Positions 34,914-60,103 of a DNA stretch of 64,000 nucleotides are shown one piece after another; positions within the stretch are counted from its first letter, which is position 1, and each line of letters begins with the position of its first letter. The notes below the pieces were generated by a model. The model ran no database searches. It was not told the origin of the DNA and saw only the letters and a program-made list of their open reading frames with translations. The DNA lies in the NCBI RefSeq assembly GCF_033958435.1, contig NC_134137.1:228449501-228513500 (forward strand), written 5' to 3'. This DNA comes from Carettochelys insculpta (lineage: Eukaryota > Chordata > Testudines > Carettochelyidae). A program made the position numbers and the translations under genes.

Positions 34914-37900
34914 CTGCAAAACAGTGAGAATACAACATTACAGTGGTGTCATTAAAAATGCTGGAAAAGATTACAGTCATTTGATTTGGGAAATGGATTC
35001 TAAGAGCCACTATAATAAATTGTTAATATAACATGTTGTCTGTAAAATCTGAACTTAAAAACACTTCCAAGTATGGCCAAGACTCTCTCATGCTATGGCA
35101 CCCTACCATCTACCTTCCTAGTCAGTTCGCAATGTCACATCAGCATTCAATCACTGTAATAGGCAGATACATTTACTTTTCCAACTAGGCCATCTGTTAG
35201 TGGACTAAATAATACTGGAAATTTAAGACACTTGGACTGTGTCTACACTAGACAGTTTTGTCAACAGACTGTGTCCACCTAACTCAGGGAGCATCTACAC
35301 ACAAAGCATTCCGTGGACAGAGTCTCAATGGAACTCCGCATTTGCCTTGACAGTGTTAACTCTGAAAACTTTGAGGCATAATACTCAAATGTAGCATAGA
35401 CACTTCTATCGACAGAGAGGGCTTCTAGTTGCCAGGCAGCCCTGTTTGCAGAGCTGCCATTCTGCTTTTGTTCACCAGAGGGCAGTGCAGCCTGGCAGCT
35501 GTTGACAGAGCAAGTTAATATGGGCTGGAGCTATCCTAGAGAGTTTTGTCTACAGAAGGGGCCTTTTTAGATATCACTCCCATCTCTATGTACCTTGCAC
35601 AAATATTTTTTTGCCCATTTTTGGGCAAATACTGCAGCGCTTTCAGTAAAATGTAAAAATGAACTGGGAAGCCAAGAGAATACCAATACAATTACCAATA
35701 TAAATGCACAAGGAGAGAAAAGTCAGCTTTAAGCATCAGTCTTTTTCCAGTTGTCAGAGTATTTCATCAAGGCTCCTCTGACCCCACCCCCATACATGTG
35801 ACAAAGCAGGTCTTTACCCACAAAAGCTTATACTCCAAAACATGTTAGTCTATAAGGTGCTACAGGACTTCTTGTTGTTCTCAAAGATACAAACTAACAC
35901 GGCTACTTCTCTGATACTTGTCAGAAATTTGAGGCATAACAATCTGTCAGCAGAGCACTGTCAGAGGTGTAACGTTCACACTTCTGTTGACAGAGGGGGC
36001 TTCCAGTTGCCAGGCAGCACTCCTTACAGAGCTGCCATGCTGCTTTCTGGCACCAGAGGGCAGTGCAGTCTGGCAGTTCTCTGTCGACAAAGCAAGTTGT
36101 GTGTAGATGCAATCTGTTGACAGAGGTTGTGTCAAGATTTCCCTGTCGACAGTAACTTCGGTTGACAGATGATCCTAGTGTAGACATAGCCATGTAGCAG
36201 CAATCCGTCAACACAAATTCTGGTGAGATTTCTCTGTTGACAGATACTTAAAGTGTAGATGTAGTCTTGATGAAATACTCTGACAACTGGAAAAACACTG
36301 ACACTTAAAGTCGACTTTTCTCCCTCTGTGCATTTATACTGGTAATTGTATTGGTATTCTCTTGGCTTCCCAGTTAATTTTTACATTTTACTGAAAGCTC
36401 TGCAGCATCTGCACAAAAATGGGCAAAAAAATATTTGTGCAAGGTACATAGAGATTGGAGTGATATCTAAAATTAATTTTATATCATTTTAAAAACTGAT
36501 TATATTTCAATTTAAAATATGTCCTTGAAAAAAATCACAATTCATAGGGACAAAGAGAATCACAGACAAATGGTTCGATGGTACCGGCTGCTGTTTTACA
36601 GTGCTTACTTTTAACAAGGTTGCCCCTGAAAGCAAAATATTTTAACATGTTTTTTTATGGGGGGAAGGGGGGAAAAAAAAAATCACAAAAAAAACATGCT
36701 AATAACTTTTAAGATACTTGAGAGTAGAGAGGCAGCAGCCCCAGAGCAGCCTTTTTGTAAGAATTCCCGTGTTTGTAATGAGATGACTTAATTCTGAAAT
36801 GTGAGAATGGTTTATCATATATCCCAAGATCAGAATGTACCATTGTGAACATCAAAATTGATCTCTTCTATAACACAGACCATAGAACGCCTCAAAATTT
36901 TCTAAGAGCATATTTTTATAATAATATCCAATCTTGATTTAATGTTGTCCCTGGCCTTTGTTTGTCAGAAGCTGGAAATGGGTGACATGGGAGGGATCAG
37001 TTGATTATCTGTTCTGTTCGTTCAGTCTCGTACCTGGCACTGCTCACTGTTGGAAGACAGGATACTGGGCTACACTGACTTTAGTCTGACCTGTTATGGC
37101 TGTTCTCTACAAGACCAAGCAGCATATTTTCAAATATTTGTTCCCCAGATAGCTGCTCACAGACTGCAAACTAAGTCATTACTTAACTTTTTTGTTAAAC
37201 TAAATATTTGGAGCTTTTCGGGTCTAAGCACTGTGAGGCAGGTTTTCCAATCCTTTAATCATTTCTATGGCACTTCTGTGTACTCTCTCCAATTTAGCAA
37301 CATCCTTCTTGAACTGAGGGCACCCGAACTGGATACAAAATTCCAGCAGCCGAAGAGTCAAATACAGAAATAAATAACTTCTCTGCTCTTACTCACCATG
37401 TTAATTTTATAATTTTGTAGTTTTCAATCAAAATGTCATGTGGTACAAAATCAAATGGCTTACAGAAATATCAGTACAGGATAAACCTGGTTATCCAGAA
37501 CTCAGATAACCAGCACATTCAGTTAAACTGATAGGCTGGGGCTGGTTGCCGTAGGGCCAGCTGCCCAATGGGGTCCAGCTGCCACAGTAGCGACAAGTGT
37601 TGTGGTGTGATGTAGAGAAGGGCTGGCTGCCCACTGCCCTGAGGTGGGAACACAAAAGTGGGGACAATCGTGTGCTGCCTAACTGGGGGAGCAGTGTAGG
37701 GCCACTCCAACAACATTTTATCATCTGGCATCCCAGGTTCCCTGGGGATGTTGGATAACCAAGCTTGTACTGTATGTTATATCAGTACTAAGATTTTATC
37801 AAATAAACCTGTAATCTCATCCAAAAATGATATTAAGTTAATTTTTTGGGATCAATTATCCATAAATCCATGTTGATGGGCATTATTACACTACTTTCCT

Positions 37901-40900
37901 TTAATTCTTTATTAATCAAGTCCCATATTACCTGTTCCACTTTTTTGCCTGGGATCAGAGTCAGACTGAGAAACATATGACTACACAAGTCACCCCATTT
38001 TCCTATTTTAAAGATTTGCACAACATTATCTTTCTCTGGACTGTTTACCCTGGTCTCCTTAACTGCAGGCAACAGATGTCAGGGAAGCCAAACTAAAACA
38101 ACTCCAAACGGAATCTGCAGAAATTATTGCATTAATTGTAAACTTGTCAATGACAATAAATTATGATGTGGATGCTTCAATTTGCCATACCAGTACAACC
38201 CCAAGATGTGCATGCTCAAGTTGCACAATTCTCAGGCTAATGTCACTGAGTGGCAGGGAGCTGGCACCTGGCTGCCCATCACTTAGGGAAGTCTGGAAAC
38301 TGACCAGCTACTGCGCTGGTCAGTTTCCCAGCTCCTGTCATGAGTGGTGACAGTCAGGCTCCTGCCCCTAACAGGAACGGTTTCCTCACTCATGTCAGGG
38401 TTGGCAGCTTCCCTGCTCCTGTCAGGGGTGGCGAGAGTCAGGCTGCCAGCCCTGACAGGAGCAGTTTCACAGCTCCTGTCAGGGGTGGCACCCTGACTCT
38501 TGCCTGCTGCCTCTAACAGGAGCTGGGAAACTGACTAGGGCAGCAACAAGGGTCAGCTTCTCCTCTCCTGTGAGCAGGGACAGCCCTGGGCTAGGCTCTT
38601 GGTTGCCCACCACTCACAGGAGACAGGAAACTGAGCAGCGCTGACTTTGACTTAGGTGGGGTTGTGCAAGAATGTAATCTCTGTGTAAGTTGGGGGTCTA
38701 CTGTACTTAAATGCAAGTATGTATAGTATCACATATATCTCAGCACTCTTGTTTGCAAACGTAAGCAACCATTTCTCTTCTCTACCCTATAAAACTCTTG
38801 AGATTCCCCAGTTTGTTGATCCCTATGGAGAAAAGAACTGCTAGTCTCATTAGCCAAGAAGGCTAGGAATGAAATGCATAAAGAACACAATGAATTCGTT
38901 AACACTCTAAGCAAGAAGTTGCCTTGTAGCAATAAGAAAGAACATGGCATGGGAACAAAGGTGTCATCATATTGCTATGCTACATACTCCCTGGATTAAT
39001 GAGGAGAGAAAAGGGTTAATACACTGTTGTGGGAGAAAAACAGCAATGATCTCATACAGCACACTCAGTGATGTATTAGCATGCAGAAAAAGAAAGGAAA
39101 ATTCAAGAACCTTCATAACCTTTCACATTTACCTTGCTCATTGTTCCCGCCATTCAAGAGAAGTTCATCATTCTGCCTTTTCATTTCTGTGATATATTTA
39201 AAGGCCTGATCCAGGATCATGTTCTTACTCTATAAAAGAATGTGTGTATAATTAGGGAAAAGATTTACCAATGAAGCTTATAAAAATCAAAAGCGGACCT
39301 AGTAATGACAAGTCAGTACATGTTATTTTTCAAACCTGGGATTTCAGCTGCTGTGTTCATTTTAAGGATGTGCCAAACTTGCCTGACATTGTTAACTATT
39401 TCCTTCATATTTTTCATACAAAAAGACTGGTTGTTTTCTCTACCCTAAGTGCAGTTCTTTGAAATGAGCATCCAAGTGGCTTTCTCTTCTGATGACATGC
39501 AACCCATTCACTGATACGAAATTCTTTTTGGTTAGCAGTGTCCATTGGGTCCATAACTGCACCAGCAATATTCTTGTACCCTGCCACTCCAGGGAATAAA
39601 AAGCAGAAGGGGCACTCCTCAGTTTCTCCACTGATACGAAAACCTATTGTTATGGGACTCTGTAGAAGCAAGGAAGAAAAATGGGTCATGGAATACAAAT
39701 GAACTACACATCTTGGAAAACTTGTGTTTCTGTAAAGTAAAGTAATTGTTTTTAGAGTGATTGTCCACATGGATTCCAGCTGTTGGGGCTAGCAAGTTGT
39801 GATTCTCATAGTTAGAAGGTGGGTGCGTGAAGTCCTCTTTAAATAGGAGTTTCAGGACAACTCTGTCACTGTGGCCACCTGATCTTGAAGCCTCAACAAA
39901 AGAACATTATTGCATAAAAATATGGCATGATCCCCATGTGGCCACCTGGAATATTTCTGAAATACAAGTGCATATCTGAGAAGAAGCAGAAGCTGTCTAA
40001 ACCCAGATGAACTGATCACTGAAGGACATAAAAGTTAAATTTCCATTTAGAGAATTTTTTTTACTCATAACAGGTTCACCTTTAACCCTGTTTCCAAAGG
40101 CTGAAAGGAACATGGTAGAGCTCCTGAAGTATTTTATACTATGTCCAGGTTTTACGAAAGAGCCCTGATCACGCCAAGCAAACATGAGAGGGTTCCCTGA
40201 AATGGAAGGAGGAAGAAGGGTGGAAGGTAAGAAGGGACTTGAATGGGATGGAAACCTTCATTTATAATTCCTTAGGACTTGCTGCTCTGACATTATACTG
40301 ATCCAAGCCTCCCAAAAATAATAATAAAAAAAGGTGATACTTGTTATCTACTGGGTTGTTGGCAGCAAGGGCTAGAGATCAAGGCAAAAAGTCAGCCTAC
40401 CACTTAGAGTATCCAGAGTGGATGAAATCCATGAAATGAGCTGAGGGTCAGTACCAAAGGGCAGAAACAAGATGCCAAAGCTGGTGGAGGTAGGTAAACC
40501 AGATTCATCTGTCAGAGGTGGGGCCAGAGATCAGAAGCAGAATGTCAGTATCAGAAGGACATCTGGAGTTATAACCCAGACGCACACCTGATAACCAAAT
40601 CCAGAGGGGAGCAGAGCAGGATCAGGCACTGGAGCAAGAGCAAGCGTTGCTGCAGACATGGTATACACAGAGAAGCCACTGATCTGCTGTAGGAGACAGG
40701 CTTATAAGCCAGTTGGGGCTTCTGGGCACTCAACGTTGCAAGGCAGTACACTTGGGCTCTTTTGTTGTTTAGCAGCACGGTTAGTCAGGGAGCAACTCAG
40801 CAGCTATTCCTTGCTGGTCTCTGACTGCATCAATGCTGAGAGGGTTGTGATCAGCTGCCTTTAGTGGCATTTAACCTGCGGTGAGGAAGATACTGAATCT

Positions 40901-43900: not shown

Positions 43901-46900
43901 CTCTCCCAAACTGCGCATGTGTCGCTACAATGGGCAAGGCAGAGACTTAGATCTAAAACACGTAACTGATGACGATGAGCTCATTAACTTCACCTCTTCC
44001 AGTGCAGCCAGCACTCCGTGCCCATGGTCCAAGCGTACATGTGAATGAACATGTGTATTCTGCGTGTGGTGACCTGGTGCAGCAGGATACAGTTACACGT
44101 GCACAGTCTCTCTCACCTCCCAGGGTGGGACAGCTGCACGGTGGGGAGGCTTTGCCCGACTGAGCTGCACACTTCATGCCACCTGTCTGCGCTCCAGGCC
44201 CTGCAGTGCTGAGTGCGGCGCAGCAGCGGTTGCCCAAAGCGGAGGCACAGACATTTCAGCTGGGCTTAGGCCAGAGCTGCTCTTTGGGTGGCCTGGTTAG
44301 CACCCATCTCCCTGCCAGGGCAATGTAAGTGTCCCTGGGACGTTGGGCCGGGGGCTCCCCTCCTTTCATCTGCAGTTTCTGCTCCATTCTGCCCTTGGTC
44401 CTGCCCTACTCCATCCATAGTCAGTCCCACTGTGCCTCCCCGCCAACCTCAACCAGTTTACTCCTTTGCCTCCCCACCTCCGACCCCTCAGAGCAGAGAG
44501 ACGTTCTCCTTCCCTCCCCGCCCTCTTCTCCCTAAGCCCTGCTTGGGGCTGCAACTGGGTGCTGGGCATTCCTCTGCCTACCCTGCGAGCCTGCTAGGAG
44601 TGAGTTGGGGAAAGGGGCACCCATTTTTTAGGCCCCCCAATTGGCTGGGGCCCCTGGGTACCTTAAATGTATACCTAATACATAATCTCTAATAATAAAT
44701 AATTTTTCCTTTCTGATAGAAGTACATTTTCTTTGGTGGCCCTGAAAGCTATCAGTTTTCATCGTGGTCCTCAGTGGGCTTTGAGTTTGATATGCCTGTC
44801 TTAGATCACCCTCATCTCTCTCTCATGGCCAGTGCAAATTTTTCTCCATTGCACATTTTCTGATAATAAGGAGTCAAAGTCCCAGATGATTCACTTTCCA
44901 TCCCTTCTACTAGAAGCAGTAAAGTAGCACTTTAAAGAATAACAAAATAATTTATTAGGTGAACTTTTGTGGGACAGACCCACTTCTCCCACGGAAGCTC
45001 ACCTAATATTCTGTTAGTCTTTAAAGTGCTACTTTACTACTTTTTTGTTTTGATAGTAGATAGACAAGCATGGCTTTCTCTCTGTTACTATTCTACTAGA
45101 AGATTATTTCTTGGCTTGTATCCTCTCAGTGTCTGCTATTTCTCCTCACAGTCAGCCTCTATTTCCCTTTCAATACAATCTCCTAGTAATACATGTCACA
45201 CTCCATAATTCTTCCCCCTTCACTGTTTTTGTGTCTCACCTTGAATTGTCACTTAGCCAAGCTAGACACACTTCTTAATCTTCTCCTTCTCAATCAGTTG
45301 CTCCAGTCCCTGATCATTATTGCTGCTCTCCTCCAAACTCAGCAAGTTGTCAACATCTTTCTAGTAATGCAGTGCCAAAAATTGGATGTAATATTCTAAG
45401 AATGGCTGCAACAAGAACATATAGACTGGGACTACTACTCCCTGCTGCATCACATGATGTGTTGGTATATGCAGCCAATAAGTTTATTAATATTTTTGTA
45501 GCCACATCACTTTGCAGATGAAGGGCTATTTTGTTACCTCTATACTTGGAGCATCCCTACTTTTTAGGTTTCTTTCTCTCCCACTGAGCATAAGTGTTCT
45601 GCACTCTTCTTCCCTAGTTGAACATGAAATATACAGCAATCAGGATTCCCTTTGCCTAGAAAAACTTGGGGAGAATTTTGGTTTAAATGAAAGAATTGGG
45701 AATTCAGACCAGTTTTGAGAACCTAGTAATTAGTTCAAGGGTGAAAAACCATAGAATATCCAAATGCTCCCCAAATCTAAAGGGAAAAAGACAATCTTAA
45801 CGATGAGGCTAAATAACTGAACCATTTCCCTGTAATTCTCTGCAAGACATCATGTTGTCTTTTCAACTAAGGTCACAAGGTTTCATCATTGGCAATGATC
45901 CTTCCCCACAGCACACTCAGTTTTTCCTGGGATAAATGCTTTTAACGCATATGCTGCCAGATTCCGATGCCAAAGGCCATCACCATAGGATCCGAATGCC
46001 AAGCAGTTCCAGTAGCTGGACATCTAGATATTCTTAACCAATTGATGGACCTCTATACACAATCTCCACTATGCTGTGCATCTGTTAGAACAAAGAAACT
46101 CAAATGGGAAAATTATTAAGAGGGACTGAATCTGCTCTCACAATTCAGGGAGTGAATAAAAAGGGATCTGACAAAGTCTTCCCACCTTGCAAGTTACATT
46201 TATTCTACCCACTAAGTTTTCAGAAGTGTACACAAAAATGTTTCCCACTTTCTCACACTCACATAACTCCATTGATTTCCCATTCATATTAGGATCTGGT
46301 TGAAAACCACCTTTTTTTTTTTTTTTAAATACATCCTTCCAGGTGCTTCTCTAGCTAACCTCATGGACCTTGTCCATTTCCACTTCTTTCCCTGCCCCCT
46401 CTCTGTCTGGTCTCTTCTCTGGCTGCAGCTGTTGGGAGAAGAAGTTACTCTCCTTAGAGTAACTTGAGTTCTTCTAGATGTATTGTCCATATGGGAGCTC
46501 AGCTGTAGGCTGTCCATCTGCTCTGGATCAGAGACTGTAAAACATCACTGCAAGCCCCTGCCTGTATGGAGCAGTGATTTGTGCTCTGAACAAGAGCATA
46601 AAAGGAGGTGCGAGATCACCACACCTGTTCCTTCTCAACTGTGAAGTTGAAACTCCTCAGTAGAGGGGAAGGAAGGCGGGAGATGAAGCATCCATAGAGA
46701 CAAAGAACTCAAGTTACTACAAAATAGGTACCCTCCTCCTCTTCAAGAATATGTTCCAATAGGCAATCCACCATAAAAGACTCATAAGCTACTAAAATGA
46801 ATGAGGAGGTAGGCGCTGAGGAGGTAAGTTAGTTCAGGACAGTTCAAAGAATTGAATCACTAATGAAGCAGTCATCTCAGAACACAGGTTAGATGGTGCA

Positions 46901-49900
46901 ATGCTGGAAAATATATGGAGCAAAGACCAAGTAGCAGTCCTTCACATTTCTCCTATGGGACAACTTTCAGTAAAAATTATAGATGTTGACTGAGCTTTAA
47001 TGGAATGAAATATGAGGGGGGGGGTTCAACCCAGCATTTTCATAGCAGCTCAAAACACATCCCACAGCCAGTCTGTCTGTGCAAACTGGATGGCTTTTCT
47101 TCTCACCTAAAACTGATATAATTAACCTGGGAGAGGACCAGAATGGTTTACTCCTGTCCAAATAGAAAGCAAGGACCATTCTGACATCAAATGAACGAAG
47201 ACTTGATGCTTCTCTGGAGGCATGATTATTGGGTAGAAAACTGGTTGGCAAACCTCCTGGTTAAAAGTTATATTCCAATGAAACCTTTGGGAGGAAATGA
47301 GAATGGGGACAAAGTATAACTTTGTAAAAGGTGGGTCCTATGGTGGGTCCACCAGGAGCGCTCTCAGCTTCCCAATTCATCTTGCTGATGTGACAATTGG
47401 GAACAAAGATCTGAGGGAAAGGTGCAGGAGGGAACAGGCCACCGTTCATTTGAAAAATTCCTTAAGGTGTTAAATCTGGGCTGAGGTGCCACTCATGGGG
47501 GCAGATGTTAAACAGGGAGAAACCTAGCTGTATAGCCCCTGGTGAAATCTGGTTGCTATAAGGTGGACCAAAACTGAGAGGCCCTGGATGGCTGAGTAGA
47601 GGACTGTGAAGGAGGCCAGATATACTTGACAGAGCTCACTGAGGAAGCCCTTTTTGAAGGTTCTAATTGGTAGTCCGAGATCTTAGAAAGAGGCATTTCT
47701 GAGGCTTCAGAAGAAGAGAGGGAGCACCAGGACAGAAAGTGTTTCCACTTTTGGAGTTAGTCTTGTGAGTTCTGAGCTTTCTGTGAAATAAGAGAAGTGA
47801 CTGAAGTCTATCCAAAGAGGATAACCACAAGCTTGAGAACCACTGAGGACCCAGCCCCTCAGATTCAGGGAGAAGGAGTTGGGACAGATGAGGGTCTTTG
47901 GTGATAGGAAGTCTGAGGGACAAGCCAATGAGAGGTAGGGAGGTTTGAGTATTTGGCCAAGCAGGTGCTATGAAAAACAGTTCTCACTCCTTGTCAAAAG
48001 ATCCTGAGAAACAGCAGTATTGATGGATAAGCATACAGATTATGGGGCCATAGCGGTATCTCAGCAGCCCCATTTCAGGAGAGAGACACAACTGTGAGAA
48101 CCTGTACTTCTACGTCCACCCCCCCACACTTTAAAAAAAAAAAAAAGATAAATTCTGTACAAAGTATTCCTTGTGAAGTATTGTTTGAAAATTCATAATT
48201 TACTGACCATTAGTCTAGTAAAATGTGTGGCAACAGTGTACATAAAATTTAAAAATACTCTTTAAAAAAGACGTGAGATCCAACTGTGGAAACAATTTCA
48301 GATCAATTCCCCAGACACAAGAAGATTAGCCAGTATCTCAGCCAGGTGTTATAATCAAATGGACTAACACCAGTTAAGCAGCCATTCTTTGGCAGAAAGA
48401 AGGGGGTGAGCAAGATCTTCAAATATTGGCAATGCAACAGCTGGGATGCCCTTCAAGTGGTTTGGTATCAGCTAAAATGCCTTTTTATTGCTGACACAAG
48501 TCACCAGTGACTACAATACCGATCTGGAATCTTTGAGTATGTGGACAGAGTTAGTCCTTGTTTTTAGGGAGATTTTCCAGGGTATAGTGAACTTCTCTTG
48601 GAAGGCCTAAGGCCTTGAAAGAGTAGATTCTTCTCATGACCATTGTCATGGCCATGCTCCTGGGAACTGTCACAGATGTCTAGAACAGCTTCTGGGGAGG
48701 TTTTCAGAATCAAGTGTCCTTCAATGACAATAACCTGAAAGTGATCTTTCTGGTCCTGTGGCAAGCATTAAATAAAAAACATACACATTTCAAGCTGCAG
48801 TGTCATTCAGTGTAGGGGAAAGACACGTAACATGTCAAACCAGGGCTGAGCAAACTTTTTATGTGGGGCCCCACTTTTCAACCCTGCAGTTGGCAGGCTC
48901 CCTCCTCGCACCTGTCTAATGTAATTCAAACCAATGCAAATTTTGGTTATGTTCATATGGAAAAATCCCCTTTTGGCCTGTGTCAGAAAATAAGTATGTA
49001 GAATGTAAAAACTTTATTAATCGGTATATAAGTGTGAACACACACACACACACACACACACAGTAAGTTACAGATTTCAACGTTTTTAGTAAGATAGATG
49101 AGCCTGAGACCCAGCAGCCAATTGTGCTCCACCCCCTTATGAAACTTTATGCCCTTCATTGCTCACGCGTCTTAAACCCTGGGGAGAGCGGAGAGGCCTC
49201 TATGCATAACAAACTGTATGCCAACACTGCCAAATGATCCATGGTGAGGGTAAGAAACTCCTCTGCCTCCTCTACCAAGACAACACTGTAGATACCATAT
49301 AAAATAAATAATGAAAAGAAACTACTAAAACAAATAAGAAAGTAAAGAGGAAGCGGTGCTAGTCTATACACTATCAAAACAAAAAGCAGTCAAGTAGCAC
49401 TTTAAAGACTAGCAAAATGGTTTATTAGGTGAGCTTTCGTGGGACAGACCCACTTCTTCAGACCAGAACAGACTCAATATTTAAGGCACAGAGAACCAAA
49501 AACAGTAAGCAAGGAGGACAAATCAGAGAAAAATAATCAAGGTGAGCAAATCAGAGAGTGGAGCGGTGGGGGGGAAGGTCAAGAATTAGATTGAGCCAAG
49601 TATGCAGACAAGCCCCTATAGTGACTCAGAAAGTTCCCATCACGATTTAAAACATGTTTAAATGTGTTCGGCACATTAACACATGGTTTAAATCGTGATG
49701 GGAACTTTCTAAGTCACTATAGGGGCTTGTCTGCATACTTGGCTCAATCTAATTCTTGACCTCCCCCCGCACCCCTCCACTCTCTGGTTTGCTCACCTTG
49801 ATTATCTCTCTCTGATTTGTCCTCCTTGCTTACTGTTTTTGGTTCTCTGTGCCTTAAATATTGAGTCTGTTCTGGTGTGGCTATGGTCTGAAGAAGTGGG

Positions 49901-52900
49901 TCTGTCCCACGAAAGCTCACCTAATAAACCATTTTGCTAGTCTTTAAAGTGCTACTTGACTGCTTTTTGTTTTAAATAAGATAAAGCATTCACAAAGTGA
50001 AGGCAGGAAGTGGAATGCAACACAGAAGAACTCTCCATGCTAAGTGGGAACCAGCTGAAAAAGAAGTTGAATGGTGGTAGACTTGCATCTCTCCATATGC
50101 CTTTGTTTGGAGCATGAGGTGTTGCTCTGCATAGACACAGGCCTGGTCACATTATTTTGCAGTCTCTGGGAGTACAAAGGCATGTACACATTGTACAGTG
50201 CAGCATGACCAACGTACCATAAGCACATGTACAAGAGCCTTCTCTGTAGCCTGTGCCACCTTGAAAAGCCTCGTCCTATATTTCAATCTACATAATTTCA
50301 TATCTTGCACACTTTTCCCCCCCACACATAGACCTCACTTCCCATTACCTTTATTAGCATGTCAAGGCTGTTTTCCACTCTGACACTTCTAGTGCAGAAG
50401 GTGGGGGCCCACAAGAGGCCTTAAAAATTCCTTGCTTCTATTGGCTTCTGCTTAAAAGCTTCCAAACTCACATATTCTCTGACCTGAGAAGTAGGTGCCA
50501 CCACCCAAGTGAGAAAACCCCTCTTTAGAATACAGGAAGACACAACTGGGAGGTCTCCCTGGGGGGCTACCCCAAGCTCTTAACCCTCCCTTAGGAGAGA
50601 GCTTGACACAAAGTGGAAGAAATTAAGCTGCAATCTGATAGCTGACCTTTTCAGTCTTAGGCATGCATACACACAGACTCTTCTCTAGGACACAGGAATC
50701 AAACCATTGCCTTAAAAAAAGGCGATTTATTAACAAAACAAAAGATTCACTTGATAAATCATACTTGGTTGCCAGGTGTTACATAGCAACATAAAAAGGT
50801 ACATTAAAGCACAGAGAATTACTTCCTTGGGATTCAGTTTAAAAATTACAGGGGGGTACAGCAGCCAGCCTGAGAAGTACAGCACCAAATCCAAAATCAG
50901 AAAATAACCTGATCGCATCTGACTAAACATTTCCTTTCTACTTACACATCATTATGTTCAAATTTCTTTGAGGCCTGGATATTTACTGAATTCTCCAAGC
51001 CTTCTCAGGCTAAAACCATTTCTGTCTCTCCCTCACTCCAGCCACACTAAAGAAATACACCTTTGGCAGATAACTGCTTCAATTAAAAAAAAACAAAACC
51101 ACACACACCTCTCTTCCCGTTGGTTCACCTGGCTGTTTGCCAACAGAGAACCCACTCTCCGTGGGTTTAACCCTTTACAGGCATTCATTCATGACAACAC
51201 AGTGAACTGTTCATGACCATTTAAGTAAAGTACTACAAAAAACATACAAAATTGTATTTGCATTGTATGGCAGCTTACTTAGTGAAGACAGGAAAGAGGA
51301 AGGCATGAGAAAGAAGAGTCAATGAAAACACTCCTCCCTCACAGGTCTATAAATTTCTTTACTTATGCAAGACAGAATAAACTTAATAGTGTCCCCACCT
51401 AGACCTTGTGGGAATTGTGAATCAGATCCTAGGTACAACCAGGCTGATCAGAAGAGTAAGGGCAAGAAAAACAGGTGCCAAAGTTACAATGTGTAAACTA
51501 CGGAAAAAAACAAAACAACCTTTCCGCAGATGTTTCTACACAGCCTGCTAACACATTCTCACACCCCTTGAATTCGCATTGTCAATGCAAGGTCACTACA
51601 GCTAGCTGAGCAAATTCTTTTTGAAATTATCTGCTCCAAAGAGTAGACTACATAAACTAGGCCATCTGATGGAGGAGAATGCCTTTCATGTGTGAAGCCC
51701 AGACCACTCCCATTTCCTCCACAGTGATACCAAATTCCCAGTAAGCTGGGAGATTCATGCTTCAAAGAGATGTATTCATAATACCCAATAATTTCCAAGG
51801 GCATTTCCATCAAAGATAACTTTACAAATAGGATTTTCATCCAGGCTTCTGTGACTGTATCAAAGCCCATTGTGCCTCCTGAATAAAAAGACTGAAGTAA
51901 GATGTATCCATATGTATTTACAACTGCTAAGAACCAAATTAAATGAGCACCATGCAGAAAACGGCTGTGCACATTTAAGATGTCCAATTACCTGCTTAAG
52001 TGCCGGGGAGCACGGAATGAGCTCTCCAATTCGGTTTATCCCAGCATTGATCTTCTTCTTCCGATGTCTCTCCACTAAGTAAAAAATACAAAGCTTTGTC
52101 ACTGGGGTACTCAGAACAACACTGCAACTGCACACCTGACACCCATGTGCACTCTTAAATATATTACTTTATGCTTGTCACAGTTTAGTACCAAGAAGTA
52201 TTCTGGAAACAAAACCAAACCAAACCCTGAACTGTTGAGTTCTCACTCAATGGAGTTTGCGAGCCATGACAGAGAAAGGGATATTTTAAAAGGCGAGGAT
52301 CATCAGAAACACTCAATGAAAACAATGGCACATCATAAAAAAAAATACTTCATATTTTTATAGTGCTTTTCAGGTGATGAGTTTAAAGACCAAGAAAGTG
52401 TTTCAGCATTCTTTAGTAATTATTATTTCCATTTCAGAGATGGACAAACTGATCAGCACAAAAATAAAGCACTAGCTGCAGAGTGGGAATGAAACCTTGG
52501 TCTCCCATTCAGGTTCTCAGCCCTTAAAACCAGAAATGTCTGATTTTCAGAGGATGAAGCACCAATTCTATATGTGGTTGGGAGCGGAAGAACAGAGAAC
52601 ACAGTTCAGGCTCTGGGTGTGTGGAGCATCGACCATATGTTTTCACTGTCTTCCAGAAGAGCAGTTACAGTTATTACAGGGTCTAGCTATGGGTGGCAGT
52701 GAAGGGCTCACCAAGAAAATATTTTATGAAAATATTTCCACTTTATGGCCCTTATGGGAGAAGAGAAGGCCAAATTAGTTTTAGTCCTCCTGTGATTAAT
52801 CTCCATTCAATAGCACAATCATGACATCTGTGGTTTAGAATTCACTAAGGGCAGCTATCCAAACTCACAAGACTTTCAAACGTGATCTTTTTAAGGTCTG

Positions 52901-55900
52901 TTAGCCTCCCCCTCTTCCCAGTGCAATCAGATGTTGCTCATCCACATGGGAACATGTTGAGCAGCTGTTTCTGCAGCCTATTCCAGAGATAACTTTTGAT
53001 CTGTTACTCAGATCAAAGTTAACAAATGGCATGCAGTTTCTTCCCAGAGTACATAATTTGCTGACATGACACGATCCATGGGTCTTCCAACTGCCAAATC
53101 ACCAACCAGAATTCACTCATATACCCAAATAGCAGGCCAGCAGGCCTCCATTATGGCAAGGATCAAGAGTTGCTCATGTTTCTTGTAACAGGCCACTTTA
53201 CAGTGGAGGTGTGAGAGAAGAACAGAAATATGTATGTAGACAGGTTTAGTTACAGATATGCAGATTTACTACAAGTGGGACAATACATTAGTTTTACTAC
53301 TTTCACTTTAGGTGAGTGCACTCTTTTTTAAACTGCATTTATCATGTCAGCATATCAATAACTATGGACAAACCCACAGAATATTTTTAAAATTTGTATT
53401 ACAGTAGTGGCTAACAATCTTCTGTCTGGGGCTAAATTATGCAACCCCCTTTCCTCATCCAAAGAAATCCATACAAATGTATAGTAAGAGGCAATACCTG
53501 CCTGTAACAGCTTATGATCTAATCAGTGCAGAGAATGAATGGTTGAAAAAAGTATTCTCTCTTACTTTACAGATGTGGAACTGAGCCACAGGGAGTCACT
53601 GGCACTAGTTCAGCAGGGTACTTAAGTATGTGCCTAACTTTAAACACACAGTATTTTCATAAGGTACTTTCCTGAACTAAAGCCTAAATGATTTGCCCAA
53701 GTTCACACATCACACTTGAGGCAGAGTTGAGCCCTGATCTCCCAAGTCTCAGTCCCATACCTGGACAACAAGACTATCCTTCTCTACGAACAGTAATTGC
53801 AAAAAGATCCTCAAAGGGTTTAAAAAAATCCTACAAAGATGAAGAATGAATTACTACAGATTAAAACAGAGTGATCTGAAGAAGTGGGTCTGTCTCACAA
53901 AAGCTCATCACCTATTTTTGTTAGTTTTCAGAGTGCTACATGACTGCTTTTTTGTTAAGTTATAGACTAACAAGGCTACCTCTGTTACTAATATTTTTGT
54001 GCGGCTTATTGTGACATCCTCCAAGATACAATCTGAAACTGTGGGATAGCTGTGCCCCCTTCTCTCTCCAGCCTGGGTTGCCTTGCCATGCTTTGCTAAC
54101 AACAAGCTACAGTCACTCAATCAATATTATGCAGGGACAAGCCCAGCTAAGTTGAATGAATGTTCCTCTAGGCTCCCATGAACACATCCTGAGACACTGG
54201 TAATTCCCTTCTGCTCTCAGCCTTGCAGCCCAGAAACATACGATCTTACTCTGCTCAAACCCTTTTCTTGAACAGTACAAACTCATTAATTAGCTCATCA
54301 CATTGTCAAAAGATAGTGGACATAAAACAGCCTATGTGATCTGACCAGATTCCCCAGGCACTTTAGACAAACTCACTGAGCAAAGATAAAACAGTAAAAT
54401 AAGTTTATTAACTACAGACAGATATTAAGTGATTACAAGTTTGAGGCACAGTGATCAGGGTTGGTTACATAAGAAATAAAAAGGTAAAATCACAGTAAAT
54501 CCTGAACTTTTTTAGATCAAGCAAGATTTGAGTCAAGCCATGTTTCTCATCCTACTGGATACTGCAGGCAGAATTCAGTTCAAAGTTCATACTAGCTAGA
54601 AAGCTTTCTAGCTGGGACCATTCCTTCCCTCCAGTTCATGGAGGCTTCTCTCTGTCTTCCAAAAGCTCCTATTTCCAGGTTTTGAGATGGAGGCAAAAGG
54701 TAGTTCGTTCCTGATTGCATACTTGTAATACTTCCTTAAACACAGAATGTAGCTTCATATGTCCTGATACCTTGCTTAGTCATGGAGTTAAGCAATCCCC
54801 ATTATGTAGCAATTGTCTCTTACTGAAGTGTAAGCCTCTTGTTTATAGTTCCCCTGCTGGTCAACGGCTGATGGTCACTTAACACCAGTCTGGGTATCGG
54901 CCATCTTTCTTGTAGCCACTGATTGTCTCCCAGACTCACAACATACTTTAGTGAAAACCATATAGCAAAATCTCGTAACTTCATATACAGTGATGATACA
55001 TATAATTAAACAGGATAGTAACGTTCAACAGATCACGATTTATCAAAATGACACCTCACAGGACATACTTTGCACAAAATATACCAATCATATCAGAGGG
55101 TCACACACAATATGTAACAAATTTCACGACTACAAAGAATAAAGTCTATATATGAATTAAAGGTTCATTAAATTACAAATTCCAATGGGCTTGATAACTC
55201 TTCTTCAGTACTAAGCTCACGGTGTCCTAAGTATTCAACTGCCTAGCTAGAACAGTCTTGGTTTAATTAAAAGCTTCAAACAGGAAGTTCTCTGGAAGCA
55301 GGGTTTGCACCCCCTTCTGTGTCTGTACAACAACCTACACAAGCGTGCTACTTTTGACCACAGGTTTTGGGTGCCCTTATGTACATACTAAATTAATAAT
55401 AAAAATAAAAACTAAAACAACTGTTAGGACAAAGTTTAAGCCAAGTTTAAATCTAAAGACAGACAAAGACTTGGCTCTTAAAAGCAATAATAATAATTCT
55501 CTCTCAGTGTGCTTTTTGATACATCGCAAAATTTGTTTAAAAAAAAAATTTAACTTCCCGCATTCCCCCTTACTGACCTGGCATGTTAGCCTCTCACAAT
55601 AAACAGGTGTTAGTAAGGCTATCTGTAAGTGTAAAGGATTTTGCTGAAAGAATTGCAAAATAGTCCTTATTTGTAATACAGGGTAGCACGATATTTGAAG
55701 TAGAAGATTAACTTCATTCACATAAAACAAAAAAGTGAAAAAAGCAATCCTGTAGCACTTTAAAGACTAATATAGTTTATTAGGTGATGAGCTTTTGTGG
55801 GAAAGACCCATTTCTTCTGATCTGGAAAATTCAGGAATAGCTCACTGGTTAGGCCTTGTAAACCCAGGGATATGAATTCAATTCTTGAACAGGCCTTTCA

Positions 55901-58478
55901 CAGGGTCTAGAGTAGTTCAGATTTAAATAAATTAAAAACAAAACAAAAACAAAAACACCCTCTCAGGGATGGTGATAGATCCTGCTGTGCAGGCAAGGGA
56001 CTGGACTCAATAACCTCTTGAGGTCCCTTCCAGTTCTATGAGATATGTATATCTCCATGTTTTGGCTAAATCCACACTGACTGCTAGTCATCACTCCTTT
56101 ATTCTCTGGGTATTTGCGAACAGAATGTTTTATGCATTGCTCTCATAACTTCCGAGGTATCAAAGTCAGACTGACTAGCCTACAGTTACCCAGCTCTCCC
56201 CATTTTAAAAATGAGCACTAGATTATCCCTTCTCCAGTTTTCTGGGACATCACCTGCCACCTGTGAGTTTGCACATATTATTGAACTATTATTGATAGAG
56301 GCTGCAAGATTTCTTCAACTAAGTCCTTCAGTGCCCTAAGGCATATATCAAGCTCTACTGATGTGAATTGATTCAAACTGGTCAGAAGATCTCTAACACG
56401 TTCTTTACTTATCCCCACCTGCATCACTTCCCTTTTATCATCTATGGTAACTTCCTGTGGCATCCAACCAGATGTTACTTTTTGCAATAAGACTGATAAA
56501 AAGTAGGTATTGATCTGCTCTCCCTTCCCATCACCTTTATTACTGGCTCACATTCTCCATTGAGTGGACCCACAACTTTCTTGGCCTGTCCTTTTTGTCT
56601 GACATGAAGACCCCCTTTTCTCTCCAACATTCTTTGGCAGATGTAAGTCATTCTTTGTCTTGGCTTTCCTGATTTTATTCCAACGTGCATGGGATAGTCC
56701 CATGTATATTTCTTTGGTGACATGCCTCTCTTTCCATTTCCTGTATGGAATCATAAGACTGGAGAGGTCTTCTAGTCCAGTCCCGTACATGCAAGACATG
56801 ACTAAGTATAATCTAAACCACCCCAACACTTTATTGCTTAACCTGCTCTTAAAAACCTCCAGTGATGGAGATTCTACCACCCCCCTACACAATTTATTCG
56901 GGTGCTTAGCCACCATGACAGTTATTTTTCACAATGTCCATCTTAAATCACCTTGGCATCAATTTAAGCCCTTTGTTTCTTGTCTTATCTTCAAAGGTTA
57001 AAGAGAATAAATTTTTCTTCCTCCACTTTGCAACCACTTCTATGTGCCTGGAAATTGCTATTTCCCCTCTTCCCTCAGTTGTCTCTTCTCCAGAATAAAT
57101 TAACCCTCTGTTTTGTCAATTTTCCCTAATAGGTCAAGTTTCCTACATCTTTAAATATTTTTGTTGCTCTTCACTGGACTTTCTCAAACTTGTCCACCTC
57201 TCTCCTGAAATTGGACCCAGAACTGGATATAATACGCTAGGCTAAGGCCTGAGCTGTGTGGACTAGAGCAGAAGACTTACTTCTCATGTCTTTACACTTC
57301 TACTAATAATCACAGAATGTTTGCTTTTTTTTTTTTTTTTTGTTGCACACAAGCAAGACGCTGTTGATTTACATTTAGCTTGTGACTCACTATGACCCCC
57401 AGATCGCTGTCTGCAGCACTTCTTCCTAGGTAGTCCCTTCCCATTTTCTACGTGTGCAACGGATTGTTCTTCCCCAAGTGTAGTATTTTGCATGTGTCTT
57501 CAATGAATTTTATATTTATTTCAGACCATTTCTTCAGTTTGTCCAGATCATTTTGAATTTTAATCTTATCCTCAAAAGCACTTACAACCTCGCCTACCTT
57601 GGTATTATCTGCAAAACTTTGTAAGTGTGCTCTCTATGCCATTATCTAAATCACTGATGAGACTCAGAACTGATCACTGAAGATCCCTACTCAATATGCC
57701 CGTCCAGCTTGACTGTGAACCCCTGATAACTAATCTCTAGGAATGGTTTTCCAATCAGTTATGCACCCACCTTATGGTATGAGGATTACCAGTGGGCTTA
57801 CTGATTAACCATACCTTGCCAGTTAACTCTGGCAAAGGCCAATAGTACCAGGCCAGAGCAGCCCTTGCTGTGATGGAGCTAGGCAGCGGAACTTTGGCCA
57901 TGGTGGGGCCAGTGATGGGCTGGACAGCAGGACCTTGGCTGAAATGGTTAACTGGTTAGGCGCTATTGTTTAACCAGTTAATCATTTTAACATCCCTAAA
58001 TCCCATCTCAGAATATTTAACCCAAGACCTTTAAAAGTTAAAAGGCAAACTGTGGGTCAGATGCCTCCCCTGACCTCCATACAGTTTATATGCTTATTCT
58101 CAAAATATACTCTCATTAAAACAACATCTGATTTTGCTTATATCTTCCTTTAGAGCTGGGATATGAGTGAAGGGTCACACTCAGAGGGCCTCTTCTGTTT
58201 ATCTAAAGGTAATATTTCTATTACTGCATACATTTTCCATAATCTAAGCAACTTAAAAAATGGTTATGGCTGTTCACAGAGCAGCCCTGCTGCAGGTGTT
58301 CCATATGAGGCTCTGAAGTCTTTTCATATAATACACTACAATAAATGGACCCTTCCCTATTCCAAAGGCACTGATCCTTATATGCTATCAAGCAGATTGA
58401 AGTAAAGAATTCAGAGATGTGCAGCTCAACAAAACATGCCAGTTCCTACCTGCATTGTGTGTCTCCCGGTTTTTCTTT
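28483..58478 (-). CDS. USF3: Upstream transcription factor family member 3 (bHLH), lacking first coding exon
   Basis: Four - strand exons join in frame: 58478-58450, 52074-51992, 39229-39133 and 34913-28483 (stop TGA at 28485-28483). Together they encode about 2210 residues; adding an unseen N-terminus of under 20 residues gives a length close to the roughly 2245 I remember for human USF3 (KIAA2018). Order: basic region (KKNRETHNAVERHRKKK), helix-loop-helix (INAGINRIGELIPC and SKNMILDQAFKYITE), then a coiled coil with Leu spacing (EEIKKLRKQLDELQ). The rest is Ser/Thr/Gln-rich with a His/Gln-rich block and no other recognised fold. The His, Glu and Arg of the basic region that read E-box DNA are present. 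Nuclear DNA-binding function is inferred from the family. The start codon was not found between 58479 and 64000. Confidence 0.95.
30425..30845 (-). other. USF3: His/Gln-rich segment of USF3
   Basis: Within the last exon, about residues 1440-1580 of the inferred full protein, His and Gln dominate (KQQQAGQ, LQHHIPH, HPHHQQIQQQMQQHF, HHQQQD). Such tracts are common in transcription-factor activation regions. The codons are mixed CAA/CAG rather than a pure CAG repeat, so length instability is unlikely. Confidence 0.85.
35234..36470. repeat. Composite repeat with 205-bp inverted arms
   Basis: The arms 35567-35771 and 36266-36470 are inverted copies; the innermost 25 bp near 35747-35771 and 36266-36290 match exactly. 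In addition 35371-35520 and 35929-36100 are direct copies of one sequence (both with gttgccaggcagc and ccagagggcagtgcag). A fragment like the Penelope-related repeat (acaaaagcttatactcc, gctacaggacttcttg) lies at about 35800-35925. TGTCTACACTAG-type ends occur at 35240 and, inverted, at 36173. Several insertions and a duplication are needed to explain it. Confidence 0.7.
37195..38080 (-). mobile_element. CR1/L3-like LINE fragment, interrupted
   Basis: Antisense LINE motifs (actctctccaatttagcaaca, ttcttgaactgagggcacc, gaactggatacaaaattccag, then ccataaatccatgttgatggg) follow the order of the reversed CR1/L3 3' half. The copy is old. It is split at 37471/37773 by a 301-bp inverted-repeat element. 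Confidence 0.6.
37472..37772. mobile_element. Inverted-repeat DNA element nested in a LINE
   Basis: CAGTACAGG...GGTTATCC at the left is matched by the reverse complement of ggataacc...gtactg at the right (ends 37772), with TA after it. Flanking sequence on both sides belongs to one LINE fragment, so this is a nested insertion. Ends and TA flank suggest a Tc1/mariner or pogo/Tigger-type non-autonomous element. Confidence 0.65.
38191..38703. mobile_element. TA-flanked element with internal minisatellite
   Basis: Left end CAGTACAACCCCAAG and right end (reverse complement CAGTAGACCCCCAAC) form terminal inverted repeats, with TA after 38703. The interior has several imperfect units built on agctcctgtcaggggtggc and its partial complement (about 38250-38600). 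Confidence 0.6.
39133..39229 (-). CDS. USF3: USF3 exon: second helix of bHLH
   Basis: Acceptor TTTATAG lies just above 39229 and donor GTAAAT just below 39133 (in - strand order). It encodes S-K-N-M-I-L-D-Q-A-F-K-Y-I-T-E-M-K-R-Q-N and then DELLLNGGNNEQ plus one base of Ala. It starts in phase 0 after the 51992 exon and ends in phase 1 into the 34913 exon. Confidence 0.96.
43120..43275 (-). repeat. MIR-like SINE remnant (antisense)
   Basis: The + strand carries the reversed MIR core order: ttttatccatggagaaactga, then cacacacagtcagtggctgag, then attagaacccaggactctt. Confidence 0.65.
43617..43838 (+). mobile_element. tRNA-headed SINE with CR1-like tail (turtle type)
   Basis: A tRNA-like head has a box A (tagctcagtggtttgagca) and box B (ggttgtgagctcaatc). 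The 3' part (ggtgataggtcctgctg, gactggactcaatgacctc, tacagctctatgaga) resembles the CR1 3' end. This head-plus-CR1-tail structure is that of the cryptodiran turtle tRNA-Lys SINE. It supports the host assignment. Confidence 0.85.
44905..45102. mobile_element. Foldback element, copy B (with target-site duplication)
   Basis: TTCTACTAGAAG is found at 44905-44916 and 45091-45102, an exact 12-bp duplication around a 174-bp insertion. Arms 44917-44978 and 44979-45043 are imperfect inverted repeats. The right side carries an extra tail (gatagtagatagacaagc...ctctctgttac) that in copy A occurs, inverted, on the left. Confidence 0.75.
45125..45720 (-). mobile_element. CR1-like LINE fragment (antisense)
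   Basis: The + strand has the reversed CR1 order: tccagtccctgatcattattg, ctgctctcctccaaactc, tcaacatctttctagtaatg, ttggatgtaatattctaag, then tttgtagccacatcac. Borders are approximate. Confidence 0.6.
46420..47720. repeat. Decayed retroelement-like region
   Basis: Starts with a sequence of the same kind as the 60878-61751 inverted repeat region (gttactctccttagagtaac, ttcttctagatgtattgtcc, and inverted agttactacaaaataggta, cctcttcaagaatatgttcc near 46712-46755). No intact reading frame. DIRS-related origin is a guess. Confidence 0.3.
49039..49062. repeat. (CA)n microsatellite
   Basis: Twelve CA units. Confidence 0.95.
49431..49461 (-). ncRNA. Hammerhead-ribozyme-like core, left arm
   Basis: Read on the - strand: CTGAAGA, one extra A, stem GTGGG, loop TCTGT, stem CCCAC, GAAA, then GCTC. 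This fits the hammerhead CUGANGA...stem II...GAAA core apart from the extra A. A very short stem III (AG with CT) followed by A could form the cleavage triplet. Hammerhead motifs are known from Penelope-like retroelements. Activity is unproven. Confidence 0.5.
49888..49918 (+). ncRNA. Hammerhead-ribozyme-like core, right arm
   Basis: Same core as 49431-49461 in the opposite arm, on the + strand: CTGAAGA at 49888-49894, stem II halves GTGGG and CCCAC, GAAA at 49911-49914. Sequence identity with the left arm is complete over this core. Confidence 0.5.
50560..51230. repeat. Unclassified interspersed repeat
   Basis: Sequence such as tttattaacaaaacaaaag and acttggttgccaggtgttaca resembles repeats I have met in turtle genomes. 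No coding capacity and borders uncertain; possibly LTR-derived. Confidence 0.3.
51992..52074 (-). CDS. USF3: USF3 exon: basic region end and first helix
   Basis: Acceptor TACTTAG lies just above 52074 and donor GTAATT just below 51992. The first two bases finish a Val codon, then E-R-H-R-K-K-K-I-N-A-G-I-N-R-I-G-E-L-I-P followed by CSPALKQ, ending in phase 0. This is the DNA-contacting ERHR and helix 1 of the bHLH domain. Confidence 0.97.
53871..53995 (+). repeat. Foldback-family monomer
   Basis: Single arm of the family seen at 49 kb: ctgaagaagtgggtctgtct, then agtgctacatgactgc, then tatagactaacaaggctacc. The hammerhead-like core has decayed (GAAA is AAAA and stem II has one mismatch). Confidence 0.65.
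54000..55140. repeat. Unclassified long interspersed repeat
   Basis: Contains taaaacagtaaaataagttt followed by attaactacagacag, and later atgacacctcacaggacata, phrases I associate with a long turtle repeat, possibly LTR-type. No reading frame. Borders and class are uncertain. Confidence 0.35.
55741..55825 (-). repeat. Foldback-family monomer (reverse)
   Basis: On the + strand tgtagcactttaaagactaa, tttattaggtgatgagctttt and gacccatttcttctgatct, the reverse of the 53871 monomer. The hammerhead-like core is mutated. Confidence 0.65.
55832..56045 (+). mobile_element. tRNA-headed SINE with CR1-like tail
   Basis: Head aatagctcactggttaggcc with a diverged box B (gatatgaattcaattct); tail ggtgatagatcctgctgtg, gactggactcaataacctc, cttccagttctatgaga. 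Same family as 43617-43838, more diverged. Confidence 0.8.
56055..56744 (-). mobile_element. CR1 LINE ORF2 fragment (antisense)
   Basis: The + strand carries the reversed order of CR1 reverse-transcriptase-region motifs (ccacactgactgctagtc, gactgactagcctacagtt, ttaaaaatgagcactagatt, cttctccagttttctggga). No intact frame remains. Confidence 0.6.
56745..57780 (-). mobile_element. CR1 LINE 3' part (antisense)
   Basis: Starts with the reversed CR1 3' end (atcataagactggagagg, tcttctagtccagtcc). It continues through cttcactggactttctcaa, gacccagaactggatataat, tatgacccccagatcgctg and ttgtccagatcattttgaat in the usual order. It is the longest CR1 copy in the window. Confidence 0.8.
58450..58478 (-). 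CDS. USF3: USF3 29-nt exon: start of basic region
   Basis: Acceptor TTATTACAG lies just above 58478 and donor GTAGGA just below 58450. It encodes (end of Arg)-K-K-N-R-E-T-H-N-A plus one base of Val. The T-H-N-A-(V-E-R) sequence is the bHLH basic region. The phases match both the human protein order and the next exon. Confidence 0.93.
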
Positions 58479-60103
58479 CTGTAATAAAAGAGAACAAAAT
58501 AAATTATGTGAAATGAAAGAAAAAAAAGCCAACTCCACATGATTATTTCTTTAATGTTTTAAGGCACTCTCATTGTTAGGGTTAAAAAATGCATTTAATA
58601 CAAACTTCTGCTTTCTTGACAAGAACGAACATGGGGATGAGAGAAATGAAAAACTATAAAAATCCACTAAAGTGGCACTGGTATGGGAGTACATTATATT
58701 AATGATCTCTGAGAAAAGATAATCAATGTTCAGACTAAATGGATGAGAGTACAATAACACGTATTCTTTGCATAATTGGTGCAATTTATAAATGTATAGG
58801 GGCAGGGATGATTTCTTCCTGTGTATTTATATGGCACCTATCACAATCAGGCCCCGGCGTTCCCTGAAGTCTTTGGGAAACTATCGCGATACAAATAAAG
58901 ATGGTTTAAAAAACTAAACAGATTTCTGACCAGTGGGAAAGCTCATCTCATGAAAAAGCTGCACTGAACAGAGCTCATTCCATTTTGTGTACAAATAGCC
59001 ATGCTATCTTACTAGTTCCAGGCCTCACTGGCACAGGTGGAAAAGAAACAAGTTACTTAATTTACAGTAAGCTCAGTCCTTGAAGACATTTGTCCACGTA
59101 GTTCACATTCTAGGTGCACGTGCCCTATGGAGTGCACAAGATTGGATTCTTTTGACCAGCAATGTCTGTTGGAGCTGTGACTACACCTTGCTGAGAGCAA
59201 CCTGAATGTAGCAAAGACTTATTGTTGATGGCGGGTGTAAGAATCAGAAACACCCTTCATTGAAATTACTTTTTTTGGAGCTCTCAAACATCTCAGACTA
59301 TGAGAGTGTTTTGAATAAGCCTTGCATGCGTGGAACACTTGTCTGGAAGGCAAAAAAACCCATTAATATTCCTATCATTTACGGGCATAGCTGCCTCATC
59401 AGCAACACAAACTTGTCAACCTCCCAGAAAAAATATAGAAAAATTAACATTAAACACTAAAGATAATTAAGAGCTACGGAGTAATAGTTGGAATACGGAG
59501 TAATAGTCCTGTCTCGCTGTCATGGCTAGTAAGATGGAACTAAGTCACAGATGAGACTCGCTCTGCCTTATGTGCCCTTGGTTAGAGGCATGAGGCCATA
59601 CAGGGACCCTGCACAGCCCCAGGAATTTGCCGGCCAAAAGATTCCCGTCTTGCATGCACAGATGCATGTGCCCTGAGTGGGAACCATGGGGACAAATACT
59701 CAAAGAAGTTCAACTGCTTGTGAGGTAGGGGGAAAACGCAGCAGATTTCAACACCCACTTTTATTCAGCAAAAGGCTGTGGTCTAGATTAAAACAAGCCA
59801 AGTCCTCAGGTCAAGAAAGAGCTATGCATATGTTTAAATGCCCTTCCTGAATCAAATACCTCACACAAGAATAACCTTTTCCATGTCTTTTGCCACCAAA
59901 TGTTTTCTGCTGAGAGAGGGAAAATGGACGCTCATTTGCAAATCTTGTTCAAATCTCATTGTTGAGATAATCCCATCCAGGTCCTGCTCCCACTGAAATC
60001 ACCAGGAGGAGGATCAGGCCTTGTGCTGCTGGGTGCGTTATCTTTCGGATACTTCATAAAACTGAGGACCTGGTGAAATCCCATCTCGGGGAATCACAAA
60101 CTC

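Follow-up and report, generated by a model that had tools for sequence, protein, structure and literature searches.

Penelope-like retroelements are the described systems closest in anatomy to the sequence reported here. All available Penelope sequences have hammerhead ribozyme motifs, usually minimal ones without helix III (PMC6155905, in excerpt). The present sequence is a ~600-nt palindrome (598 nt) within a USF3-like gene of the turtle Carettochelys insculpta, in a 64-kb stretch of contig NC_134137.1 (228,449,501–228,513,500) that was analysed whole and is called the window below. Each of its two mirror arms contains a hammerhead-like core. It is probably an old insertion, likely Penelope-like, made of two head-to-head terminal repeats, each with a core that lacks stem III and would need a second copy to cut.

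In the Penelope element of the lizard Anolis, reverse transcription starts 111–118 nt into the open reading frame and the hammerhead cut lies at 26 nt (PMC11167929), which by subtraction places the start site 85–92 nt past the cut. An optional tail of 30–40 bp lies between two start sites, and the protein cleaves and extends both target strands. The same study found that the hammerhead cut only with protein added, that it was dispensable for insertion in vitro (hammerhead mutants insert normally), and that the cut site coincided with neither end of any read. Rotifer Penelope elements have head-to-head inverted pseudo-long terminal repeats (pLTRs), with a 31-bp tail on one and the inverted copy 37 bp shorter; their target-site duplications are 8–10 bp, and palindromes at the junctions were interpreted as self-priming on an antisense template (PMC3846280, in excerpt). 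A 2018 survey described Penelope as unreported in any amniote (PMC5753468, in excerpt). Amniote copies are no longer news, because Penelope proteins were listed in 2022 from turtle and alligator work (PMC9004415, in excerpt) and a lizard element was studied in 2024.

The palindrome and its repeat family

Each arm of the palindrome has the core CTGAAGA-A-GTGGG-TCTGT-CCCAC-GAAA, followed by GCTC. An initial annotation of the window, made from the letters alone, had placed a hammerhead-like core in both arms, and both were found where it had put them. The parts of the locus are:

49332–49339: possible target-site duplication, left copy, AAATAAGA; not significant alone
49342–49375, minus strand: optional 3' tail, on the left arm only, ending 89 nt past the predicted cut
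49376–49666, minus strand: left arm, the element's terminal repeat, on the same strand as the sense of the USF3-like gene
49431–49461, minus strand: left-arm core, in the sense direction of the USF3-like gene, with a cut predicted between 49431 and 49430
49579–49665, minus strand: 28-codon remnant matching that of the right arm, TFKHVLNRDGNFLSHYRGLSAYLAQSNS
49661–49677: point at which the palindrome turns, AATGTG-TTCGG-CACATT (hairpin of 6 bp, loop of 5 nt)
49672–49973, plus strand: right arm, the same terminal repeat, without tail and with an 11-nt extra stretch immediately 5' of the core
49673–49759, plus strand: 28-codon open remnant and stop, TLTHGLNRDGNFLSHYRGLSAYLAQSNS
49888–49918, plus strand: right-arm core; predicted cut after 49918
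49974–49981: possible target-site duplication, right copy, AAATAAGA

Over 291 compared positions the arms show 10 substitutions; an 11-nt insertion or deletion also separates them. An assembly artefact was ruled out because the arms differ in this way, and in the one-sided tail, and because the same pattern recurs at three loci. The 28-codon remnant is likely the C-terminus of the element's protein.

Two details of the arms stand apart from these results. The 11-nt extra stretch (49873–49883, right arm only) lies between TGG repeats and abuts the 5' side of the core. All 10 substitutions fall within the inner 137 of the 291 positions, with none in the outer part that includes the hammerhead. 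Under uniform decay such clustering would occur about 5 times in 10,000, a figure computed post hoc; arm-to-arm conversion or the use of two templates are possible causes.

The palindrome belongs to a family of six loci and nine arms in the window, identified by BLAST and by a nine-arm profile. The profile, built from those arms, detected no further arms in the window at E values up to 10. Three of the six loci are head-to-head palindromes and the other three are single arms. The initial annotation had pointed to decayed cores at 53876 (plus strand), at 55791–55818 (minus strand) and near 35803 (plus strand), which were recovered at 53876, 55819 and 35798. Its suggestion that the window holds several fossil ribozyme copies is supported, with two palindromes (4873–5046 and 44917–45090) that it had omitted. 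Besides the main palindrome, the family comprises:

4873–5046: second head-to-head palindrome, turning around at stem II; flanked by CTCAATAATTTT at 4861–4872 and 5047–5058
35798–35829, plus strand: more decayed core, with C3, G8 and G12 changed; tailed
44917–45090: third head-to-head palindrome; flanked by TTCTACTAGAAG at 44905–44916 and 45091–45102
53876–53906, plus strand: tailed arm whose decayed core has G12 changed to A and a stem I of 5 bp
55789–55819, minus strand: decayed core, U4 to A and G12 to A; no clear tail

The ends of the arms follow a pattern. In all three palindromes one arm ends 88–92 nt past the predicted cut and its partner about 45–55 nt past it, a difference of 34–43 nt. 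In the five tailed arms the tail ends 82–92 nt beyond the predicted cut. These arm and tail end points were picked by eye. Flanking duplications are clear at two of the six loci, one matching at 12 of 12 positions and one at 14 of 15 (1 random pair in 3000 did as well). The exact 12-mer at both ends of the 44917 locus occurs nowhere else in the window on either strand.

A side observation concerns the older-looking copy at 35798, where one frame runs without a stop between the predicted cut and the end of the tail (35830–35917, plus strand), as in the Anolis element.

The hammerhead-like core

In both arms of the main palindrome, CUGANGA and GAAA flank stem II, and one extra A precedes stem II. 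The extra A, which the initial annotation had also pointed out, is present in all five aligned cores of the family and is therefore a family feature rather than decay. The cores of the main palindrome are the only ones in the family that are complete but for this base.

How often such a motif might arise by chance was gauged with a full descriptor: CTGANGA, 0–1 nt, a stem II of 5–7 bp with a 3–8-nt loop, GAAA, a self-complementary AXYT tetramer, a non-G base, and a stem I of 3 bp or more. It matched both arms of the main palindrome and no other place in the window; the two arms count as one observation because they are mirror copies. Random sequence that kept the dinucleotide frequencies of the window (96 Mb, one strand) did not contain the full descriptor at all. 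The core with stem II occurred there 28 times, and once when the stem III tetramer was added. The descriptor was designed after the sequence was seen, so these counts are a guide and not a test.

In stem II, 22 of 25 cells are paired across the five aligned cores. Stem I is GGU/ACC in the arms of the main palindrome, GUGAU/AUCAC at 53876 and GAU/AUC at 55819, with two pairs at 35798. Its two core-adjacent pairs are kept in all five aligned arms and the third in four of the five, and one pair is altered on both sides, from A-U to G-C. Sliding the stem partners cuts pairing to 30–52%, compared with 76% observed. For the isolated core, the predicted probability of stem II is 0.99 and that of the three stem I pairs 0.90–0.96.

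Core positions are numbered here as is general for hammerheads, which may also be assembled from two copies. No stem III is present within a single copy, and a self-complementary AGCT lies at the cut site in seven of the nine arms. This AGCT could form stem III between two copies, with a predicted cut after GCTC. The initial annotation had looked to pairing in stem I or stem III of the family; stem I pairs are indeed there, while stem III appears only as this predicted two-copy helix.

G12 is kept in four of the nine arms and is A in four and C in one. In intact cores G12 lies in a CpG, which would explain its loss, and methylation-driven decay could quickly disable ribozymes of this kind.

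Searches of other sequence collections gave three small results. The core pattern had no match in viral contigs. Among genome contigs it matched one, of bacterial origin and with 12 bases in common with the arm, which was counted as chance. A 16-base piece of the tail matched two viral contigs, with which the five tails share at most 21 bases (best E 0.001); this was also counted as chance.

Penelope-like anatomy and other explanations

The insert likely consists of remnants of a Penelope-like retroelement, a placement that comes from anatomy and not from protein similarity. Four traits provide the link: the optional tail, the inverted terminal repeats, the start-site distance and the minimal hammerhead. 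Penelope terminal repeats may be direct or inverted, and the head-to-head order occurs at three of the six loci. The optional 3' tail of 30–40 bp on one inverted repeat is present in all three palindromes. The initial annotation, which had joined the hammerhead to Penelope, was right about the sequence and probably right about the family.

A number of results weigh against this account. Rfam gave no matches over the whole window at the gathering score. At E values up to 10 and without a positive control, it gave 23 matches in 47000–57000 and three unrelated ones in 49840–49990, with no hammerhead in either set. Twelve of the 23 fall on the tip of the palindrome, mostly to microRNA models, and are read as a consequence of the long hairpin. 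The covariance-model match for which the initial annotation had called therefore did not appear, but the miss is not taken as decisive because Penelope hammerheads are usually without helix III (PMC6155905, in excerpt). For covariation in the five sequences, none of five measures beats shuffling (of 500 shuffles, 217, 465, 350, 500 and 128 do at least as well as the real data). Nearest-neighbour energies are −20.7 for the two-copy fold, −23.2 for two monomers and −28.1 for the best cofold, in a model that leaves the non-standard core contacts of the hammerhead unscored. The 28-residue remnant had no match in PDB sequences or in a protein search with an X-padded query, and so provides no link to the telomerase-like reverse transcriptase or the GIY-YIG endonuclease of Penelope-like elements; its LNRDG stretch is reminiscent of Penelope proteins, but the protein searches gave no match.

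The ends of the arms supply further points of this kind. The single arm at 55819 is neither clearly tailed nor clearly tail-less (65 nt). Between cut and tail, all frames are closed by stops in three of the five tailed arms, and one frame is open in the other two. The flank match at the main locus is weak, with a score of 4 that is equalled by 159 of 3000 random pairs, and the three single-arm loci have no convincing flanking duplication (best match 10 of 16 at each). In the Anolis study the start sites were not seen to differ between top and bottom strands (PMC11167929), so a separate start for each strand is not favoured.

Several of these results would suit another explanation, in which a short hairpin conserved in a retroelement terminus happens to look like a hammerhead and never cut RNA. 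The lack of an Rfam match, the extra A between A9 and stem II, the single copy without stem III, the energies that do not favour the two-copy fold and the covariation that fails to beat shuffles are all on its side. This explanation is nevertheless unlikely. The full descriptor is absent from 96 Mb of random sequence, stem I is kept with differing letters across subfamilies, and the distance from cut to tail agrees with that of Penelope; insertions of 1–2 nt beside CUGAnGA also occur in known hammerhead alignments (PMC10085705, in excerpt). The insert could also be a non-autonomous retrozyme with a circular RNA rather than a Penelope end. The repeats are short, with 34–43% GC and a type I-like core, and the hammerheads of vertebrate retrozymes likewise work better as dimers (PMC7229834, in excerpt). 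The six loci have head-to-head palindromes and single arms but no head-to-tail copies, the core has no helix III, and both arms contain a 28-codon open frame, all of which make a retrozyme very improbable.

The two remaining explanations have still less in their favour. Long inverted repeats with flanking duplications are what a foldback or miniature inverted-repeat (MITE-type) DNA transposon would leave, with the palindrome as its inverted terminal repeats. Such an element should not have unequal ends (one arm is 34–43 nt longer in all three palindromes), single arms with the same 3' part at three of six loci, or arms that vary in length from about 70 to 300 nt, and there is hardly any likelihood that the family is of this type. 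A working hammerhead domesticated in an intron, like the conserved intronic hammerheads reported from amniotes (PMC6155905, in excerpt), would account for a left-arm core that is sense within the intron and intact but for the family's extra A. Three points make it highly implausible: transcription reaches the antisense arm first, and that arm is predicted to pair with the core over its full length; Rfam gave no hammerhead match; and the insert belongs to a repeat family with six loci in the window.

For the preferred reading, a Penelope-like insertion, the events in the live element are inferred. Two cores would have paired through AGCU and cut after GCUC. Reverse transcription would have begun at two sites, one yielding the tail and the other none. 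The first complementary DNA (cDNA) may then have folded back on a short self-complementary stretch to give mirror arms – or, by an alternative route, the opposite target strand may have given rise to a second cDNA that the first one met. At the 4873 locus the junction reads GTGGG-T-CCCAT, in which both strands of stem II survive but little of the loop does. The arms of the 44917 locus have staggered starts, one at the 3' strand of stem II and its partner 14 nt further on. Fold-back priming of the cDNA explains the near-equal arm starts. A tail on one arm only could result if both target strands were used for initiation and two start sites were available; the two mechanisms may have acted together. 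A tail on exactly one arm in three of three palindromes has a chance of up to one in eight, so three palindromes are too few to decide.

The junctions also invite a more speculative idea, which is doubtful as it stands: that stem II doubles as a DNA hairpin, at which the cDNA folds back and self-primes its second strand, making the head-to-head palindromes of Penelope. Stem II is at or next to the turning point in two of the three palindromes; in the third, the turn is at a different hairpin, whose loop has 5 nt. A literature search returned no paper joining Penelope, hammerhead and self-priming; the primary papers on Penelope hammerheads were outside that search, so the idea may already be in print. 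Should the stem II turn-around hold genome-wide, the conserved hammerhead of Penelope would have a DNA-level role.

Hammerhead-cut RNA was considered as the template and ruled out for these copies because all nine arms extend upstream of the predicted cut, consistent with the Anolis hammerhead mutants (PMC11167929).

Host gene and comparison with known systems

A USF3 query matched exons at 51992–52075 and 39131–39229 on the minus strand, with splice-site sequences adjoining. The USF3-like coding exons span 28483–58483 (minus strand) and also include 58451–58483 (weak, E 0.05) and a stretch from 34914 down with a 2179-codon open frame. The gene is presumably USF3. With exons on both sides, the insert lies in an intron, where the left-arm core has the sense orientation. 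The initial annotation had envisaged a USF3 transcript with two opposed cores, one of them sense, and the positions agree with this; a working ribozyme is not borne out.

The right, antisense arm is transcribed before the sense core. When the minus strand of the 598-nt palindrome was folded alone, without the rest of the intron, the bases of the sense core were partnered with 49888–49918 at a probability of at least 0.997, and the probability of stem II was 0. Because the antisense arm is made first and the predicted pairing is complete, self-cleavage of the sense core in this transcript is unlikely. A transcript of the USF3-like gene would carry the insert with its sense core sealed in a hairpin of ~290 bp, where it would neither cut nor regulate. 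Most likely the insert is a well-preserved fossil of a known kind and not a new genetic switch, and its meaning for the host gene is most likely none.

Minimal hammerheads in Penelope elements were already known, and the present family adds a likely, partly decayed case. It brings a likely dimer-type hammerhead and the two-start, one-tail Penelope anatomy together in one set of fossil insertions. As natural insertion products, they offer a comparison for the in vitro model of Penelope integration.

Small Penelope hammerheads that cut as dimers are reportedly the subject of Lunse et al. (2017) and of Cervera and de la Pena (2014). The likeness to these is one of titles, with the extra A and the AGCU standing outside the comparison. 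The satellite hammerheads of axolotl and newt share a short helix III and better cutting as a dimer, but are found in head-to-tail tandem repeats with circular RNAs (PMC7229834, in excerpt).

The Penelope families of the rotifer Adineta vaga are alike in their head-to-head pLTRs, one-sided tail, inverted copy 37 bp shorter, short duplications and junction palindromes (PMC3846280, in excerpt). They differ in target-site duplications of 8–10 bp, compared with about 12 bp here, and the paper has no mention of hammerheads. Their palindromes were attributed to self-priming on an antisense template, whereas two of the three junctions here lie at or beside stem II.

The comparison with PAc, the Poseidon/Penelope element of Anolis carolinensis, was made from its published description and not from its sequence (PMC11167929). 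The PAc open reading frame starts at stem II and spans the start sites, while here the frames from cut to tail are closed in three of the five tailed arms. The two are alike in the cut-to-start distance of 85–92 nt, in the optional tail, and in the cutting and extension of both target strands, which the palindromes of the window would reflect.

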